A stretch of 36,110 nt of DNA, from the IMG/VR virus record IMGVR_UViG_3300044655_000826, positions 1-36,110 of that record. One strand, 5' to 3'. A program made the position numbers and the translations under genes. Positions 1 to 35,800 of the stretch are shown piece after piece. The DNA comes from a virus. The notes beneath the pieces are model-generated. The model was given only the letters and a program-made list of their open reading frames with translations, made no database searches and was not told the DNA's origin. Each line of letters starts with the position of its first letter. Position 1 is the stretch's first letter.

Positions 1-300
1 GAACTCGGCATCGTTGGTATAAACATCTAGTCTATTCCTTTCAACCCTTGTTGCGTATGCATCTTCGTCGTAGGAACTAAAAAAGTCACAAACGCTGCTT
101 ATTATTTCTTTATTAGCTGTGGCCCTACGCCAATTATCATAATGATATCCGCTGTCACTGTTAGAATTTTCTAACCAGTCCTTGATATTTGAAATAGGCT
201 GTGTGCGAAATATCACACAGCCGTCTATTTGCAGGCTGATTTTATATAACCATTTGTTGTAGAACTTACGACTGGTCGATTTGGTTTTCAGTTGTAGCAT
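1..300 (-). CDS. Unknown protein, N-terminal 100 residues (3' end outside window)
   Basis: An open frame runs from an ATG at 300 to the window edge without a stop, 100 codons, so only the N-terminus is visible. It begins MLQLKTKSTSRKFYNKWLYK, a basic and aromatic start, followed by a more acidic segment rich in Asn, Asp and Ser. It overlaps the last 35 nt of clpA in another frame; the other frame I checked just downstream is closed by stops. There is no strong Shine-Dalgarno before the ATG, so the start is tentative and translation may be coupled to clpA. I do not recognise the family. It would be the third gene of the dnaJ-like/clpA transcription unit. Confidence 0.6.
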   Translation of the reverse strand, partial: MLQLKTKSTSRKFYNKWLYKISLQIDGCVIFRTQPISNIKDWLENSNSDSGYHYDNWRRATANKEIISSVCDFFSSYDEDAYATRVERNRLDVYTNDAEF

Positions 301-2623
301 CTTGTTCTTGTGTATTTGCTGCTTCAGCAATTCGTTGCGCCCTAAGAGCTTTTCTTTCTTCCTTGGTCAACGGTTTTGGTATCTCAACCACTGTGAAATC
401 TAATTTGTCATCGATGATATCCACGGTAACTCTTCCGCCATTTACTAGATCACCGAATAACACTCTGCGACTTAGTGGGCTCTTGATCTCGTTGTCTATG
501 ATCCGTGCCAATGGTCTTGCCCCCATCTTTTTGTCGTAGCCTCGATCTGCTAGCCAACGTGTGGCCTTGGCGTTAACCACGATCTCAATGCCTTTGTCTT
601 TGAGTTGACTGTTGAGATCAGCCACAAACTTCTTGACGATCTGGATCACAGTGTCGCCACTGAGCTTAGAGAACTTGATCACAGCATCTAGTCTATTGCG
701 GAATTCTGGGCTGAAATGTTTCTTAATAGCTTTGTCATCTTCGCCATCGCGTTCTAGTTCGCCAAACCCGATGGTGTTGAGTTCATTGTCTGCTGCGCCG
801 AGATTTGATGTCATGATCAATATTGTGTTACGACCATCAGCTACTTTGCCATTGGATCCTGTGATAAAACCGTTGTCCATGAATGCCAACAGAATGTTCA
901 TGACATCTGGATGAGCTTTTTCAACTTCGTCTAACAGTAAGATGGCATTAGGTGTTTCTTGTAGTTTAGTGATCAACATACCAGCATTATCTTCGTAACC
1001 AACATAACCCGGAGGAGCACCGATCAATCTTGCCACTGAATGCTTTTCCTGATACTCGCCCATGTCAAATCGTATCAACTGCATGCCCATTTTATCTGAT
1101 AATTGTTTAGCAGTTTCGGTTTTGCCGCAGCCTGTGGGTCCTAAGAATAGGAATGACCCAATAGGCTTGTTAGGTGCCTTCATGCCAGCCTGACTCACAA
1201 AGATTTTATCTAACAATGTATCTACAGCATTATCTTGTCCGTAGACCACACCCTTCATCTGAGTGTCTAACTCTGAAAGATTTTTGCTTTCTTTTTGCGC
1301 CACGGTTTCTAATGGCATGTTAATCATCTTACTGAGTTCGTAGGTGACCTGTTCGATGTCTACAATCTGTGTAACACCTTCCATGCCCTCATCATCTTTG
1401 AGCTTATATCTAGCACAGGCACAGTCAATAATATCAATAGCCTTGTCAGGCAGTTTTTTATCACTCATATATTTGACACTGAGCTTAACTGCTTGTTCGA
1501 TGGCTGCATCGGATATTTTTACATTGTGATGTTGCTCGTAGTATTTCTTTAGACCTTTAAGGATCTTCACAGCCATTTCTGGTGTAGGCTCTTCAACGGT
1601 CACACGTTGGAATCGACGCATCAGCGCACGATCGCCTTCGAAGTGCTTGCGATATTCTTCCCATGTGGTAGATGCTATCAGCTTGAGAACACCTTTGGTA
1701 AGTATGGGTTTCAACATATTGGCCATGTCGTTTGAACTGCCATTTGCAGCACCCGCACCGTTCATCATGTGTGCTTCGTCGATGAACAAGATGATCTTGC
1801 CTTTTTTCTCTAGTGCAGCCAACACCGCTTTAACTCGTTCTTCGAAATCACCACGATACTTTGATCCTGCTAGGAGAGCACTGATGTCCAAAGTATAGAC
1901 TTGATGGTCCTTGATAAATTTAGGAACCTTGCCTTCGTGAATCTTACGAGCAATGCCCTCAGCAATAGCAGTTTTACCCACTCCGGGATCACCTACCATT
2001 AACACGTTGGCCTTGTTTCGACGTGCCAATACCAATTGTATTTTTTCTATTTCGTCATCACGGCCTATTACAGGATCAAGTTTTCGCTGTTTGGCCTTGA
2101 GACTGAGATTGGTACAAAACTGATTCAATATTCGATCTATTTGATTTGAGTTCACTATTCTTGTTTCAACTTCGGCGTCTTCGGTAACCTGCACATTTTC
2201 TTGGAAATACTTTACAAACTTTTCTTTAGTCACCCCGGCCTTGGTAAGAAAGTAGTAACCGAAACTGTTTTTCTCTGACAGCACACTGATAATGATATCT
2301 GATATCTCCATGCGCTGTCTACCGCTAAACAACACCTGTGTAAAGCAACGATTCAACACACGTTCTACGCTGTTGGTCTTTTTAGGTTTTGCGTTGGCAT
2401 TAGTAGTTTTAATATCATTGAGATTGTTTTTTAAGTAGTGTTCTATATTTGTTTTAACAAATTTAGCATCAGCACCAAAACTTTCTAATAGTTTATAAGA
2501 ATCCTCATCATCCATGATGCCATAGATAATATGTTCAATGGTTATGTACTCGTGACTCAAAGTCTTGGCCATCTCTATAGATTTTTCAAAAATTTCTTGT
2601 AGGCTCTTACTGGGTTCAATCAT
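266..2623 (-). CDS. clpA: ClpA-like AAA+ unfoldase (two ATPase modules)
   Basis: Hsp100 protein unfoldase, 785 residues (E. coli ClpA 758). An N-domain (about 1-145) is followed by D1 with Walker A GDPGVGKT at 211-218 and Walker B ILFIDEAH at 278-285, then D2 with Walker A GPTGCGKT at 495-502, Walker B LLLDEVEKAH near 562-571, arginine-finger region FRNR at 641-644 and sensor-2 GARPLAR at 701-707. There is no ClpB-type coiled-coil middle domain between D1 and D2, which favours ClpA. At 618-620 is IGF, matching the position of the IGL loop by which ClpA docks on ClpP, so a host ClpP partner is plausible (inference); no clpP or clpS is in the window. The C-terminal 30 residues are a charged tail. 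The ATG overlaps the stop of the J-domain gene (TAATG), indicating translational coupling and an early operon from the promoter at 3466-3494. Confidence 0.95.
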   Translation of the reverse strand: MIEPSKSLQEIFEKSIEMAKTLSHEYITIEHIIYGIMDDEDSYKLLESFGADAKFVKTNIEHYLKNNLNDIKTTNANAKPKKTNSVERVLNRCFTQVLFSGRQRMEISDIIISVLSEKNSFGYYFLTKAGVTKEKFVKYFQENVQVTEDAEVETRIVNSNQIDRILNQFCTNLSLKAKQRKLDPVIGRDDEIEKIQLVLARRNKANVLMVGDPGVGKTAIAEGIARKIHEGKVPKFIKDHQVYTLDISALLAGSKYRGDFEERVKAVLAALEKKGKIILFIDEAHMMNGAGAANGSSNDMANMLKPILTKGVLKLIASTTWEEYRKHFEGDRALMRRFQRVTVEEPTPEMAVKILKGLKKYYEQHHNVKISDAAIEQAVKLSVKYMSDKKLPDKAIDIIDCACARYKLKDDEGMEGVTQIVDIEQVTYELSKMINMPLETVAQKESKNLSELDTQMKGVVYGQDNAVDTLLDKIFVSQAGMKAPNKPIGSFLFLGPTGCGKTETAKQLSDKMGMQLIRFDMGEYQEKHSVARLIGAPPGYVGYEDNAGMLITKLQETPNAILLLDEVEKAHPDVMNILLAFMDNGFITGSNGKVADGRNTILIMTSNLGAADNELNTIGFGELERDGEDDKAIKKHFSPEFRNRLDAVIKFSKLSGDTVIQIVKKFVADLNSQLKDKGIEIVVNAKATRWLADRGYDKKMGARPLARIIDNEIKSPLSRRVLFGDLVNGGRVTVDIIDDKLDFTVVEIPKPLTKEERKALRAQRIAEAANTQEQDATTENQIDQS

Positions 2624-30646: not shown

Positions 30647-30934
30647 ATGTTTCTCACAACCAAAACTCAACTAAATCAATACTCTAGACTCAGTAAACAC
30701 GGAGTCGAACATCAATATAAAAGAAAAAAGACTGTAGTAGTGTTGAGATGTGATGACTGTGATTCGATATTTGAAAGAGATCTCAAACACATGGATAAGA
30801 AACGCCTCAGCAACAATTTCTTTCATTGTTGTGGGTCTTGTGATGCCAAAAGATTTGCTCAACGCACAGGAGTCGAACAAAAACAGATCTGGAATTTACC
30901 TGCTAGTTTAGACTTACCTGTGTCTAAATTCTAA
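30647..30934 (+). CDS. Zinc-finger-like small protein
   Basis: 95 residues. A basic N-terminus (MFLTTKTQLNQYSRLSKHGV) is followed by VVVLRCDDCDSIFERDL and then HCCGSCDAKRFAQRTGVEQK: CxxC plus C(C)xxC pairs about 27 residues apart, as in treble-clef or zinc-ribbon folds. It resembles a conserved small protein that I recall from T4-like cyanophages, function unknown; a DNA- or RNA-binding regulator is a reasonable guess. No other ATG is available before the first Cys pair. There is no ribosome-binding site, and a TAAATA motif lies 4 nt upstream. Its 3' end overlaps the convergent iscA gene by 11 nt. Confidence 0.8.
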   Translation: MFLTTKTQLNQYSRLSKHGVEHQYKRKKTVVVLRCDDCDSIFERDLKHMDKKRLSNNFFHCCGSCDAKRFAQRTGVEQKQIWNLPASLDLPVSKF

Positions 30935-31250
30935 ATGATTCGCCGCAGCCGCAGCGGTCGCGCTCATTGGGATTGATAAAATCAAAGCCTTCATTGAGCC
31001 CATTGCGGACCCAGTCCATGGTCAACCCGTCTAAATAGGCTAGACTTTTGGCATCTACTAACACAACAAATCCGTCATGTGCAAAATTAGTTACTCCTAC
31101 TTCAGATTCGTAACTGTCCACGTATTCTAACACATAGGCTAGCCCACTGCACCCTGTAGTCCTAACACCTATGCGAATGCCTACGCCGTGACCACGTTTT
31201 GCTAGATTCTGTTTGATTCGTTTACTGGCTGTGTCGGTTACGGTAATCAT
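30924..31250 (-). CDS. iscA: A-type iron-sulfur carrier (IscA-like)
   Basis: 108 residues, the usual length. The three conserved cysteines are present: Cys34 in TTGCSGLAY and Cys100/Cys102 in CGCGESF near the C-terminus; the family motif N-P-N is at 93-95. A-type proteins accept Fe-S clusters from scaffold proteins and deliver them to apo-enzymes. The gene overlaps the 3' end of iscU by 29 nt, which implies translational coupling; no clear ribosome-binding site. Phage-encoded A-type carriers are known in marine phages, but here it is paired with a full IscU. Could equally be named ErpA/SufA type; the NPN..CGCGESF ending favours IscA. Confidence 0.93.
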   Translation of the reverse strand: MITVTDTASKRIKQNLAKRGHGVGIRIGVRTTGCSGLAYVLEYVDSYESEVGVTNFAHDGFVVLVDAKSLAYLDGLTMDWVRNGLNEGFDFINPNERDRCGCGESFRI

Positions 31251-31608
31251 CTACGGCTGCTTTGATAGCATCTTCTGCTAGAATTGAACAATGTATCTTA
31301 ACTGGAGGTAGGGCTAGTTCTTGGGCGATTTCGGAGTTTTTGATTGATCCGGCTTGGTCAAGTGTTTTTCCTTTGACCCATTCTGTAACGAGGCTCGAGC
31401 TCGCGATAGCCGATCCGCAGCCATACGTTTTAAATTTTGCATCTGTAATAATACCTGTATCATGATCAACCTTTATTTGTAATTTCATAACGTCACCGCA
31501 AGCAGGTGCGCCAACCATGCCCGTACCCACATCTTGATCATTTTTATCAAATGATCCTACATTTCGGGGGTTTTCGTAATGATCAATTACTTTGTCCGAG
31601 TATGCCAT
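31222..31608 (-). CDS. iscU: Iron-sulfur scaffold protein IscU
   Basis: 128 residues, same length as E. coli IscU and collinear with it. The cluster ligands are present: Cys37 in GAPACGD (with Asp39), Cys64 in KTYGCGSAIAS, Cys107 in KIHCSILAEDA. The HscA-recognition motif LPPVK is at 100-104. It should assemble [2Fe-2S] clusters using sulfur from a host cysteine desulfurase (IscS is not encoded here). ATG with GGAG 8 nt upstream, inside the last codons of the SOD gene (26-nt overlap). Its near-host sequence suggests fairly recent acquisition from a proteobacterium, though its base composition looks like that of its neighbours. Confidence 0.95.
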   Translation of the reverse strand: MAYSDKVIDHYENPRNVGSFDKNDQDVGTGMVGAPACGDVMKLQIKVDHDTGIITDAKFKTYGCGSAIASSSLVTEWVKGKTLDQAGSIKNSEIAQELALPPVKIHCSILAEDAIKAAVDDYRNRHSQ

Positions 31609-32140
31609 TGATTATTCTCCAGTTTATTATCTTCCATATATTGGTTAGATACTTTTTTTTATCAGCTTGATAGTCTAATGCCCATGCATGCTCCCACCAA
31701 TCAATCAACAACACAATATCATTTCTAACTTCGTGATTGACAATGGTTTTGATCTTGCCGTCACGAGCTAAGTAAGCCCATCCGCTGCCCTGAATCTTCA
31801 TGGCTGTTTTTTCAAATTCTTCTTTGAATCGATCAAAAGTACCAAAGTGTTTTTCTATAAACGCCAAACTAGCATCATAGGGTCTGTTGGATCCCTCTGG
31901 CTTTTGTAGTTGACCAAAATAGATATTGTGTAAAAACGCACCAGCTTCATTGAAATCGTCATCACCTTCGTTCTTGTTATATCGATCAACATAGGCTTTA
32001 TACAGCGTTCCGTAATGATAATCTATGGTTTCTTTAGATTTTACAGGTGCAAGATCCTCGCGATCGTATGGCAGTGACAACTGTATGAGTTTGTCTTTTT
32101 TGCCTTCAACAATGAATTTTTGAATGAAATTGTATGTCAT
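31583..32140 (-). CDS. sod: Fe/Mn superoxide dismutase
   Basis: 185 residues, slightly shorter than bacterial SodA/SodB (about 192-206). The four metal ligands can be placed: His42 (DYHYG), His71 (FLHNIYF), Asp147 and His151 (DWWEH). Second-shell positions are unusual: Gly67 where FeSOD has Gln69, and His136 (VNHEV) where MnSOD has Gln146; the loop before the WEH motif is about 10 residues shorter than in E. coli. The substrate-channel histidines HH after HYGK are replaced by LY. It converts superoxide to peroxide and oxygen, protecting Fe-S clusters. First gene of the SOD-IscU-IscA unit. GGTAAATA lies 5 nt before the ATG, with no ribosome-binding site. Confidence 0.9.
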   Translation of the reverse strand: MTYNFIQKFIVEGKKDKLIQLSLPYDREDLAPVKSKETIDYHYGTLYKAYVDRYNKNEGDDDFNEAGAFLHNIYFGQLQKPEGSNRPYDASLAFIEKHFGTFDRFKEEFEKTAMKIQGSGWAYLARDGKIKTIVNHEVRNDIVLLIDWWEHAWALDYQADKKKYLTNIWKIINWRIINGILGQSN

Positions 32141-32145
32141 ACATG

Positions 32146-32153
32146 TATTTACC
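32146..32153 (-). promoter_or_regulatory. Late-type promoter GGTAAATA for SOD-iscU-iscA
   Basis: GGTAAATA ends 5 nt before the SOD ATG, so the predicted transcript starts at the start codon. It is separated by a single base from the divergent CATAAATA. Confidence 0.6.
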
Positions 32154-32182: not shown

Positions 32183-32422
32183 ATGCTAGGATTAATCAAG
32201 AAACTTTTTGGCAGCAAGCCAGTCGAATCTGTTGAGGTGCCTTACAAGGTAGAAACTCCACCAGTTGAAGTTGTTCAGCCTGTAGTTGAGCCAACCGCAG
32301 CAGCAGTTAGTGCTGAAAACAAAGCAGTGGCCGTGGCCAAAGCCAAACGAGCACCAACGAAAAAACCAGCTGTTAAGAAAGCACCAGCGCCGAAGGCTCC
32401 ACGCAAGCCAAAGGCTCCGTAA
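32183..32422 (+). CDS. Small protein with Lys/Pro/Ala-rich histone H1-like tail
   Basis: 79 residues from the ATG with AAGGAG 7 nt upstream. It starts MLGLIKKLFGSKPVE, then a Val/Glu/Pro-rich linker and a tail of K-K-P-A / K-A-P type repeats (residues about 54-79: KRAPTKKPAVKKAPAPKAPR), strongly basic like histone H1, AlgP or phage DNA-condensing tails. An electrostatic DNA- or RNA-binding or packaging-related role is likely; the amphipathic N-terminus could bind membrane or a partner. The 3' end overlaps the convergent uvdE gene by 50 bp. Confidence 0.75.
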   Translation: MLGLIKKLFGSKPVESVEVPYKVETPPVEVVQPVVEPTAAAVSAENKAVAVAKAKRAPTKKPAVKKAPAPKAPRKPKAP

Positions 32423-33478: not shown

Positions 33479-34268
33479 CGACAAATTTGTCCTGAACGTC
33501 CTGAGGATTTGGTTCTCCGTGAAACACAGCTATGCTACAATCTGGAGGAGGTCGCACATCGTGTTTCACTGTTTTGAATCGCCGCCCACCATGTGCAACA
33601 GTGAGTTCATCCCTGCTGCGTATTTCCCATTTGTAACTCATGATCCATTCTTTGGGCCAAAATATCATTCTATCTTTGGCTATCTTCCAAATCCAATCTT
33701 GATCTCCTTGCAGCCGCTGTGCCTCTGCGGGTTTCGATTTGAATTGATCGTATATATGACCTTGTGTGCCGTGTGTCCATGCCAATACCGAACTGTTGAG
33801 ATAATTCCAACCGGGAAAAAATTTTCTATTGAAATCGTGGATACCTATAAAGCTGGTAGGATGATATCCAGTGAGCTTGTTCATGTTGGCATGTATGACC
33901 ACATCTAGATCCAAATATAATATTCTTCCCCTGAGAGGCAATGCAGAATCAAACATGTGAACCTTGTGCCACCAACCTCTAGCATAGTTGGCGTTGGGTT
34001 GATATATTTTACGAACTCCGGCAATATCATGTTGATCGTCAGTGAGACAGGCAAACTCATAAGGCACAGTGAGATGCCTAGACACCATATTACGTAGCCG
34101 TTCTACATATTCCCGGCCGTATTTGTTACCAAATCTCACACACAGCACAGTGATAGGTTCGTTGGGATCCGAAGGCACTACAAGATCAGGATATTCTCCA
34201 CGTGCTGCCATTTTGGCAGCTCTCTTTTCAGCCTTGGCTTGTATGCGTTGTTCTTTTGACAATTCCAT
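33462..34268 (-). CDS. GT-A fold glycosyltransferase-like protein
   Basis: 268 residues. A charged, Lys/Ala-rich helix (1-36) precedes a GT-A nucleotide-sugar-binding fold: [12 protein letters not shown] (first beta strand and loop), the metal-binding D-x-D as LYLDLDVVI with DLD at 120-122, NSSVLAW, and QGDQDWIWK as the acceptor-side acidic motif; FHGEPNP near the end fits the terminal His of such enzymes. The sugar donor and acceptor are unknown; LPS or virion glycosylation are the options. It starts within the 3' end of kdsA (41-nt overlap), so it is translated with the Kdo enzyme, which favours an envelope-glycan role. Confidence 0.8.
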
Positions 34269-35073
34269 CTATGGCTACCAAGTCTTTTAAAATGTCACTA
34301 AGGTCGTCTAGTTTGATCATATTTGGACCATCACTGGGGGCAGAATCTGGATCTTCATGACACTCCATAAACACAGCTGCTACTGATCCTGTAGCTATAG
34401 CAGCTCTCGCCAGGTACGGGACCATGGTCCTATCTCCTCCAGATCTTTCTCCCATTCCCCCAGGCTGTTGAACAGAATGTGTGGCATCAAAGACCACTGG
34501 ATAGCCAGTGCTTGCCATAATAGGTAGACTGCGCATGTCCACCACAAGATTATTGTATCCATGAGTATATCCTCTTTCACATAACATGATGCGTTCATTA
34601 CCAGTCGAAGCAATCTTTGCCGCAACATTTTTCATATCGTGGGGAGCAAGAAACTGCCCTTTCTTGACGTTGATGGCACATCCTGTAGCACCCGCTGCCA
34701 ACAATAGATCAGTTTGTCTACAAAGAAATGCTGGAATTTGTAACACATCTATGCCAGCGGCAGCACACAACTCTGCCTGATAACTTTCGTGAATGTCAGT
34801 TAAAACTGGCACTCCAAAACGATGTTTAACTGCATTTAGAATCTTTAAACCTTCATCAATACCGATACCTCGTTTAGTAGAAATGCTACTTCGATTGGCT
34901 TTGTCAAAACTGCTTTTATAGATAAACTTAATGCCTAGACTATCACAGGTTTGTTTTATGCTGTGTGCGGTTTCGAGTGTATGATCTAGACTTTCAATTT
35001 GACAAGGACCGGCAATTAATACCAACGGTTCGTTGTTTCCTAATTTTGTATTATGAATGTTAAATGTGCGCAT
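34228..35073 (-). CDS. kdsA: 3-deoxy-D-manno-octulosonate 8-phosphate synthase (KdsA)
   Basis: 281 residues from the ATG at 35073 (E. coli KdsA 284); an upstream in-frame ATG is rejected because it would add 24 non-homologous residues overlapping a neighbour. It condenses arabinose-5-phosphate with PEP to give Kdo-8-P for LPS core. Visible: [10 protein letters not shown] with Cys24, the metal ligand of metal-dependent (class II) KdsA in place of the Asn of E. coli; [16 protein letters not shown] PEP site ([17 protein letters not shown]); [45 protein letters not shown] lies 5 nt before the ATG, with no ribosome-binding site. Confidence 0.95.
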
Positions 35074-35078
35074 ATTAT

Positions 35079-35086
35079 TATTTACC
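35079..35086 (-). promoter_or_regulatory. Late-type promoter GGTAAATA for kdsA
   Basis: GGTAAATA overlaps the stop codon of the small membrane-protein gene and ends 5 nt (ATAAT) before the kdsA ATG: the same octamer and spacing as upstream of SOD. Confidence 0.55.
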
Positions 35087-35273
35087 AATGCCTGATGGTA
35101 TTGGCAATAATAAAACCACAGGTTATCACGTGAATGATAACCCAAAAAGTTTTTAAGAATAAAACAATGCGAGCTTCACGTAGAGTGAGAATAGGCACAT
35201 CTGGCCTATCCTCATCAGTTTGCCCCATTCTGTGCCCAGTTGCTCGAGCCCAGATGCGTTCAATGCTATTCAT
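35082..35273 (-). CDS. Small membrane protein
   Basis: 63 residues: a hydrophilic N-terminus ([20 protein letters not shown], then EDRPDVP) and one hydrophobic helix (about 38-59, [20 protein letters not shown]) with a short IRHW tail. It resembles a small membrane protein that I recall from T4-like cyanophages. The start overlaps the stop of the QueD-family gene by one base (TAATG). Function unknown. Confidence 0.78.
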
Positions 35274-35800
35274 TAGGCCTCATAGACTGCCGAATTGCCA
35301 GCATGTTCAAACACTTCTGCTGAACGCAACTTAACACCCTGACCTACAGGATACCGAGCTTTGTAACTTCGTTCGGTATTAGGACAAGTCCAAGTCTCGC
35401 CTCGCTGGAACGTTTCTAAAATCTCTTTCATTTTAAAGAAAGCCAGTTCGGAAAACTTTTCACATCCAACTCCGGGAACTAATCGAAGATCTAAAATCCC
35501 CCCAACGTCATTGAGACCTAGTTCTGCTAATTTGAGAAATTTTTCTAGATGAGGATCATCAGTAGCAATAATTGTAGAGTGATCGAACATGTATTCGCTC
35601 CACTCTTTGAATGCTTTGAGTCCGCCAAAGTCCATGACCCAATTGCGGTCGTCTAAGGTTTCTGATTCGAAAATTAATTTGATACCGATTGAGTATCCGT
35701 GCAGTAATGAGCAGTGACTATGTGTGCTTCTCCACTGTCTAAAACAGCATGAAAGTCCGCGGTCGTTGCCGTAAGTTTTTGTTGAAAGATATTTTGCCAT
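35273..35800 (-). CDS. queD: QueD / 6-pyruvoyl-tetrahydropterin synthase family protein
   Basis: 175 residues, longer than E. coli QueD (121). The family core is recognisable: Cys30-x3-His34 in SHCSLLHGYSIGIKL (QueD: C-x3-HGH), DFGGLKAFK (W-V-x-D-F), FDHSTII and the PGVGCEKFSEL segment with the catalytic Cys/Glu region (PTSE in QueD). The second Zn-site His of the HGH motif is Tyr36, as in a widespread subfamily with F-R-Q-W-R...S-H-C...HGY. The likely role is queuosine or 7-deazaguanine precursor synthesis, or pterin chemistry; no other preQ0 genes are in view. Strong AAGGAG ribosome-binding site. Confidence 0.85.
   Translation of the reverse strand: MAKYLSTKTYGNDRGLSCCFRQWRSTHSHCSLLHGYSIGIKLIFESETLDDRNWVMDFGGLKAFKEWSEYMFDHSTIIATDDPHLEKFLKLAELGLNDVGGILDLRLVPGVGCEKFSELAFFKMKEILETFQRGETWTCPNTERSYKARYPVGQGVKLRSAEVFEHAGNSAVYEA

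Follow-up and report, generated by a model that had tools for sequence, protein, structure and literature searches.

The 36,110-base IMG/VR virus record IMGVR_UViG_3300044655_000826 (the window, by which we mean this whole stretch of DNA) carries three minus-strand genes, sod, iscU and iscA, which encode a superoxide dismutase (SOD), an iron-sulfur (Fe-S) scaffold and an IscA-like carrier and overlap head to tail by 26 nt (sod/iscU) and 29 nt (iscU/iscA). A first-pass annotation had described this layout, and it was confirmed, with each protein scoring above the Pfam gathering threshold. The triad is widespread among viral loci. We consider it fairly probable that the unit is a phage add-on to the iron-sulfur cluster (ISC) pathway of the host, which would supply and protect Fe-S enzymes of the phage. 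Two phage traits that had been reported separately, Fe-S assembly genes and defence against reactive oxygen species (ROS), are thereby joined in one conserved unit. The identity of the genes, their coupling and conservation, purifying selection, the separate phage lineages of the proteins, the lack of IscS-type and ferredoxin matches in the records searched and the existence of a second carrier and of radical-SAM genes were observed and form the basis of this proposal.

In the Pfam searches, IscU scored 187.5 (NifU_N) and IscA 60 bits (Fe-S_biosyn). IscU also exceeded the cut-off of the curated IscU equivalog model (TIGR01999, 224.9 bits vs 192.4), and the alignment revealed that it retains C37, D39, C64 and C107, together with LPPVK at 100-104. 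We take the three cysteines to be those that bind the cluster, D39 to be the Asp of such scaffolds and LPPVK to be the chaperone motif. The carrier passed the A-type-carrier model (TIGR00049, 100.1 bits vs 58.8) and scored slightly below the IscA equivalog cut-off (TIGR02011, 140.6 vs 150.6), and it was therefore assigned only as an IscA-like A-type carrier; C34, C100 and C102, presumably its cluster cysteines, are retained in the alignment. The two proteins matched PHROG families 8429 ('NifU-like') and 17776, respectively. The best 80 of at least 587 bacterial IscU relatives were 82-87% identical to the phage IscU, and their titles indicated Burkholderiales or unresolved betaproteobacteria, except for L213 and L220, metagenome-assembled genomes of one alphaproteobacterium and one gammaproteobacterium. 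Judged by IscU alone, the host is most likely a member of Burkholderiales. In a quick tree of clustered rows (32 phage rows, 14 bacterial representatives and the window, without bootstrap, and with C48C1 and MD-2021a uncounted), the 33 phage rows split from the 14 bacterial representatives with a support of 99.7 in the Shimodaira-Hasegawa-like approximate likelihood ratio test (SH-aLRT). The GenBank entry 'Acinetobacter phage MD-2021a' was rejected as phage evidence; its locus is a complete bacterial isc operon.

The SOD exceeded the gathering thresholds of both of its Pfam domains (Sod_Fe_C 85.1, Sod_Fe_N 38), fell far below every named NCBIfam SOD equivalog listed (best PRK10543, 82.3 vs 348) and had no match in PHROGs. 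Its metal ligands, H42, H71, D147 and H151, were invariant in all 56 rows of an alignment comprising the window and 55 distinct sequences from 105 loci. The best of five AlphaFold2 (AF2) models, which ranged from 70 to 88, reached a predicted local distance difference test score (pLDDT) of 88.1 and a predicted template modelling score (pTM) of 0.85, with residues 1-3 and 8-14 poorly modelled, and the 50 best Foldseek matches listed from the PDB were SODs, including one plastid polymerase subunit of SOD origin. By its Pfam domains, its three His and one Asp ligands and its predicted fold, the protein is an Fe/Mn SOD. BFVD contains a 60% identical 'superoxide dismutase' from an uncultured Caudovirales phage, so such proteins were already in databases.

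The active sites of all three proteins had been described as intact. This was borne out for the IscU and IscA residues and the SOD metal ligands, but the His/Tyr gate pair usual in SODs is lost. In the phage SODs, the gate His is replaced by Leu and its partner Tyr by Ala, Val, Ser or Met, and of the HXXXHH motif the two later His are replaced, the first of them by Leu and the second by Tyr or Ala. Leu or Ile stands two residues before the Asp ligand, a C-terminal His is common to these proteins, and the segment before the Asp ligand comprises 30-32 residues, compared with 37-42 in the cellular rows; the spacing to the second ligand His is that of the Microbacterium and Halopiger rows. H136, a candidate for the water-coordinating C-terminal His of SodFM3/4, is invariant in 56 of 56 rows and aligns at that position, but it adjoins a shortening of 6-8 residues relative to most cellular rows. 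As a set, the altered residues were present in none of 38 bacterial rows.

Across 398 Pseudomonadota genomes, the best SOD match was 43% identical. In a first tree, the SODs of T4-like phages and of the jumbo phages MIJ3 and 2.275.O formed one side with 100/100 support, opposite 39 mostly Pseudomonadota rows. A second tree again placed the phage side apart from 18 cellular rows, 5 of which were new (Bacteroidota, Actinomycetota, Halobacteria and Alphaproteobacteria) and 13 reused from the first tree; L380 was excluded, and the bootstrap had yet to converge. The MIJ3 and 2.275.O proteins lie on long branches, and their exact position in the trees is uncertain. Because its neighbours look bacterial and it branches with cellular rows, the SOD listed under 'Bacteriophage sp.' MW462191 was treated as cellular and not as a phage row. 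The trees indicate that, among the sequences compared, the window SOD falls into a group confined to phages, among them jumbo phages of Pseudomonas and Vibrio, and both protein trees that the first-pass annotation had called for placed the phage copies on a side of their own. Because this group is common to T4-like and jumbo phages, the need of a phage for SOD becomes testable in isolates such as MIJ3.

To describe the spread of the unit, we scanned the viral loci of IMG/VR and considered the best 80 loci in each scan, from at least 598 relatives in the scan led by IscU, at least 466 in that led by SOD and at least 98 in that led by an SOD type about 50% identical to that of the window; the three sets share contigs. 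In the SOD-led scan, iscU overlapped sod by the same length in 77 of the 80 loci, and for this reason the overlap is more than chance; the full triad was present in 73. The scan led by the 50% identical type placed iscU no more than 400 nt from sod in 74 of 80 loci and found the full triad in 70, with five loci lacking iscU and one cut. In the IscU-led scan, iscA followed iscU in 74 of 80 loci (in two of them with erpA between), and sod was part of the cluster in 32. The proposed search of viral metagenomes for iscU beside sod and iscA was thus successful. The view that an IscU plus SOD unit is not a standard module stood insofar as no earlier report of a coupled unit was found, but these counts reveal that it is not a one-off.

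The genes also occurred in other orders, namely erpA-sod-iscU-iscA, sod-iscU-erpA-iscA and sod-erpA. At L312, L349, L350 and L356, where the neighbours known from the window were not found nearby, the order was erpA-sod-iscU, followed by iscA in the three loci that reach it, and L138-L140 possess sod and erpA with no iscU. The recurrent linkage of the same parts in varied arrangements speaks for one function. No sod was found in any of 80 bacterial iscU loci within fetched flanks of up to 5 kb, and the commonest spacing between bacterial iscU and iscA was +1 nt (17/79). Selective constraints were evaluated with sequences of the commonest length from L001-L154 that were at least 60% identical. 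The median dN/dS was 0.069 for sod, 0.091 for iscU and 0.098 for iscA, compared with 0.084 for the neighbouring uvdE (just 11 sequences and 23 pairs). These ratios indicate that the triad genes are under purifying selection, a sign of function.

The window represents part of the genome of a T4-like jumbo phage. It shares gene order with the 281,658-base IMG/VR record G008 for most of its genes at 90-100% identity, the exceptions being two genes at 67-69% and one without a match in the fibre region, a small gene at 32183 (84%), kdsA (85%) and a QueD-like gene (71%). PHROG matches around the unit include a T4-like clamp loader, PhoH, baseplate and fibre proteins, an endolysin and a holin, which place it among T4-like phages. 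The large phages that carry the triad probably dwell in lakes, as far as the literature and the kin of IscU indicate their habitat.

The sequence GGTAAATAC lies 4 nt 5' of the sod ATG in 86 of 92 SODs that are more than 80% identical, and the TAAATA core is kept 5 nt 5' of this ATG in 87 of them. By these counts, the claim of a late-type promoter holds for close relatives of the window SOD; it did not extend to most of the 50% identical type, as discussed below. Upstream of G008 genes, TAAATA was 14.8-fold enriched, and it stood 4-5 nt 5' of the ATG in 19 of 314 predicted genes, compared with 0.9 expected from all ATGs and at most 4 in 500 shuffles. In the geometry of T4 late promoters, transcription with this spacing would begin at the ATG. 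If that geometry holds, these genes, including sod, would form a class of leaderless late mRNAs. Inspection of the sequence found no clear ribosome site for iscA, and its translation is probably coupled to that of the upstream gene.

The best clue to the use of the unit is the number of radical S-adenosylmethionine (SAM) enzymes encoded in large genomes that contain it. Radical-SAM enzymes require [4Fe-4S] clusters, which superoxide destroys. Matches to PF04055 (those above the cut-off in brackets) numbered 19 (18) in G008, 14 (11) in G419, 13 (11) in G423, 12 (11) in G421, 10 (10) in G422 and 4 (3) in G420. Among the reference phages, T4, HTVC008M and C48C1 had one each, and S-PM2, P-SSM2, Syn9, MIJ3 and 2.275.O had none. 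Shorter records with the triad contained 10 (G015), 6 (G013), 2 (G019) and 1 (G016); records with iscU-iscA and no SOD match contained one (G010, G011 and G021) or none (G012 and G020), and G009, which has sod-erpA, contained two. The CxxxCxxC motif was present in 18 of the 19 G008 genes, the remaining one being QueE-like and below the model cut-offs. The G008 genes (L285, L289, L290 and L291) form two clusters, one at 145-158 kb and the other at 230-262 kb; the twitch-domain model was passed by 4 of the 9 tested, and one resembles the B12-dependent methyltransferase KedN5, with a score far below the cut-off (191.5 vs 700). The radical-SAM region of G008 also encodes a protein that joins a cold-shock domain to a glutathione peroxidase domain (L289:12701-13435, plus strand).

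An IscU match was found in all six large records (in two frames in G422), as was an A-type carrier, and neither was found in T4, S-PM2, P-SSM2, HTVC008M, Syn9, MIJ3 or 2.275.O. There were two A-type carriers each in G008, G419, G420, G421 and G423 and one in G422; the second carrier of G008, the only record to which the ErpA model was applied, passed its cut-off (153.2 vs 117). Both this second carrier and the probable clients (radical-SAM matches, numbering up to 19) lie elsewhere in the genome and could not have been seen in the 36-kb window. The first-pass annotation had also concluded that the unit must depend on the ISC pathway of the host, and this was upheld. In seven phage records, most of them fragments, no IscS-type protein (PF00266) and no ferredoxin above the cut-off (PF00111) was found, HSP70 (PF00012) was above the cut-off only in G422, and HscB was not searched for; a complete ISC system was found in none of the seven. 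The HSP70 of G422 is full-length (G422:C1:25302-27086, 849.9 bits, 640-aa frame), and its contig bears sod-iscU.

These findings suggest the following mechanism. Late in infection, a single transcript from the TAAATA promoter would yield the SOD, IscU and the IscA-type carrier. The IscS of the host would provide sulfur, and its ferredoxin electrons, to the phage IscU, such that the unit would join the pathway after IscS, and the LPPVK motif would allow cluster release by host HscA/HscB. The phage IscA, together with the second, ErpA-type carrier in large genomes, would then hand clusters to apo-enzymes, the main clients being the radical-SAM enzymes of the phage itself. The SOD would clear superoxide, the destroyer of exposed [4Fe-4S] clusters, and thereby sustain both the cluster supply and its clients in an oxic host. 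We infer expression of the unit, activity of its enzymes, the host with its partner proteins and the radical-SAM clients from the genomic evidence. The proposal offers a concrete reason for the unit, namely that the phages themselves encode many radical-SAM enzymes sensitive to oxygen.

Several observations weigh against this proposal. First, the link to radical-SAM enzymes is correlational and confounded by lineage and genome size. The triad contigs G014, G017 and G018 (51-58 kb) and the window have no radical-SAM match, and G016 and G019 have only the low counts given above despite the triad, although all of these are fragments. The complete phage C48C1 has IscU and one radical-SAM gene, with no A-type carrier and no SOD match, and the jumbo phages MIJ3 and 2.275.O possess SODs of the same group yet no IscU, A-type carrier or radical-SAM match, from which it follows that the SOD has uses of its own. 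Second, 48 of the 80 IscU-led loci are without sod in the cluster (two of them with less than 600 nt upstream), and 65 of 80 genes for the 50% identical SOD type have no TAAATA 60 nt or less from the assigned start, which was the outermost ATG and is possibly wrong. Third, the locus of G422, which a second contig (L325) shares, matches iscU in two frames and has about 1.3 kb between sod and iscA, and this copy may therefore be broken. The two-frame match, at 3783-4156 of L325 and L326, lies in contigs of different metagenomes and reflects either a frameshift or an assembly error common to both. Finally, the phage SOD is without the His/Tyr gate pair, and these residues matter for catalysis in other SODs. 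Because of the missing promoter motif in the 50% identical type and the doubtful iscU of G422, our confidence in the proposal is slightly lowered.

One alternative is that the triad mainly shields and mends Fe-S enzymes of the host and helps an infected cell to withstand oxidative stress, caused by light or by the oxidative burst that follows protist grazing, and has no particular connection with phage enzymes. The triad contigs without radical-SAM matches would fit this explanation, as would iscU-iscA without sod in contigs with 0-1 such matches (G010-G012, G020 and G021), and a phage-mediated ROS defence that includes SODs is proposed for freshwater phages in the available part of Kavagutti et al. 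2019 (PMC6802176). However, the radical-SAM load of the large triad genomes, most of which have a second A-type carrier, far exceeds that of five reference T4-like phages, and a pure ROS role leaves a scaffold and carriers unexplained. We regard this alternative as unlikely, though it deserves to be kept in mind. An improbable one is that phage IscU and IscA contend with the IscU of the host for IscS and draw sulfur and iron away, altering, for example, IscR-controlled genes. The 82-87% identity to the best bacterial IscU proteins, nearly all from Burkholderiales, would permit docking on host IscS, and no IscS-type match was found in the seven records; however, a decoy would need neither the retained catalytic residues and chaperone motif nor a low dN/dS, and the A-type carriers remain linked. 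Assembly artefact or bacterial contamination, to which only the closeness of phage and bacterial IscU might point, has a negligible probability and was ruled out by synteny across many contigs, given the identical neighbours, the shared gene order of the window with G008 and the lack of sod at bacterial iscU loci.

Returning to the add-on to the host ISC pathway, a bolder version of it is conceivable and is offered tentatively. A family of jumbo phages may have an oxygen-tolerant radical-SAM programme of its own, served by a modular cassette (sod, iscU, iscA and sometimes erpA) that is partly under a leaderless late promoter and in which a gate-less SOD subfamily evolved in phages would guard Fe-S assembly and not act as a general antioxidant.

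The features of the unit and other genes of the window are listed in the table below. The terminator scan identified 4 terminator-like sites in the scanned region vs 1.4 expected. The unit is adjoined by uvdE, a glycosyltransferase gene, kdsA and the QueD-like gene. The convergent 95-aa ORF (open reading frame) recurs in many related loci and had neither a Pfam nor a PHROG match.

Table. Coordinates of the sod-iscU-iscA unit, its signals and other genes in the window
Feature	Position	Strand	Description
sod	31583..32140	-	185 aa, Fe/Mn-type superoxide dismutase; Pfam, AF2, Foldseek, invariant ligands
iscU	31222..31608	-	128 aa, Fe-S scaffold; TIGR01999, PHROG 8429, alignment
iscA-like A-type carrier	30924..31250	-	108 aa; TIGR00049, alignment
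TAAATA late-promoter core	32146..32151	-	5 nt 5' of sod ATG; possibly leaderless start
GGAG, Shine-Dalgarno-like	31617..31620	-	9-12 nt 5' of iscU ATG, within the sod frame
Terminator-like hairpin, weak	30854..30881	-	about 42 nt 3' of iscA
95-aa ORF	30647..30934	+	two zinc-ribbon-like CxxC pairs; convergent to iscA, with whose end it shares 11 nt; TAAATA just 5' of ATG
Small Lys/Pro/Ala-rich protein	32183..32422	+	divergent from sod; own CATAAATA motif and AAGGAG site
KDO-8-phosphate synthase	34228..35145	-	passes 2 of 3 model cut-offs for that enzyme
QueD-like protein	35273..35800	-	score under the QueD cut-off
ClpA-like protein	266..2623	-	TIGR02639, 886.7 bits vs cut-off 993.15; PHROGs family, ATP-dependent protease

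The first-pass annotation had named single A-type carriers as known from marine phages; IscU in phages has also been published. The available text of Nishimura et al. 2017 (PMC5332604) describes IscU and/or A-type carriers and radical-SAM enzymes in marine T4-like environmental viral genomes, and its authors suggested that viral Fe-S proteins, too, are served by these assembly proteins; the word 'superoxide' does not occur in that text. The IscU proteins reported there group with gammaproteobacteria, one of them with SAR86, whereas the phage IscU here is nearest to Burkholderiales and its gene overlaps sod and iscA. SODs and other ROS genes carried by freshwater phages, interpreted as phage ROS defence, appear in the part of Kavagutti et al. 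2019 (PMC6802176) that was available, the main text of which does not mention iscU, Fe-S or iron. A passage from 2025 (PMC12542629) lists nifU and an Fe/Mn SOD among putative Microcystis virus genes in separate roles and describes no operon, and single Fe-S assembly genes have been reported in lake viruses (PMC7678222, PMC8226683). No report of phage sod coupled to iscU was found in the literature examined, which was mostly openly accessible and included PMC9878933, PMC13059738, PMC12195039, PMC10300362 and PMC6892783. PHROG families 8429 (NifU-like Fe-S cluster assembly protein) and 17776 include the matches of the window IscU and IscA and are silent on coupling.

Among known SODs, the phage proteins resemble SodFM3 and SodFM4 in fold and metal ligands and, by alignment, appear to carry a C-terminal His where most SodFM3/4 do; according to the accessible part of Sendra et al. 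2023 (PMC10172142), this His marks most SodFM3/4, and metal preference is influenced by the residue two positions ahead of the Asp. They differ from cellular Fe/Mn SODs (39 and 18 rows in the two trees), which lie on the opposite side of the branch, in the missing gate His/Tyr and the shorter segment. The SODs of Pseudomonas jumbo phages (MIJ3, PA5oct and their kin) and of Vibrio phage 2.275.O are 41-43% identical over most of the window SOD, and those of MIJ3 and 2.275.O carry its altered residues, although these two phages are without IscU, A-type carrier and radical-SAM matches. As in the bacterial isc operon (iscRSUA-hscBA-fdx), iscU in the phage unit is followed by iscA; unlike that operon, the phage unit is without iscR and iscS, adds sod and has overlapping genes in place of the commonest bacterial spacing. 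Thus, both ingredients had been reported before, IscU and A-type carriers from T4-like phages and SODs from freshwater phages; the coupled sod-iscU-iscA unit appears to be new.

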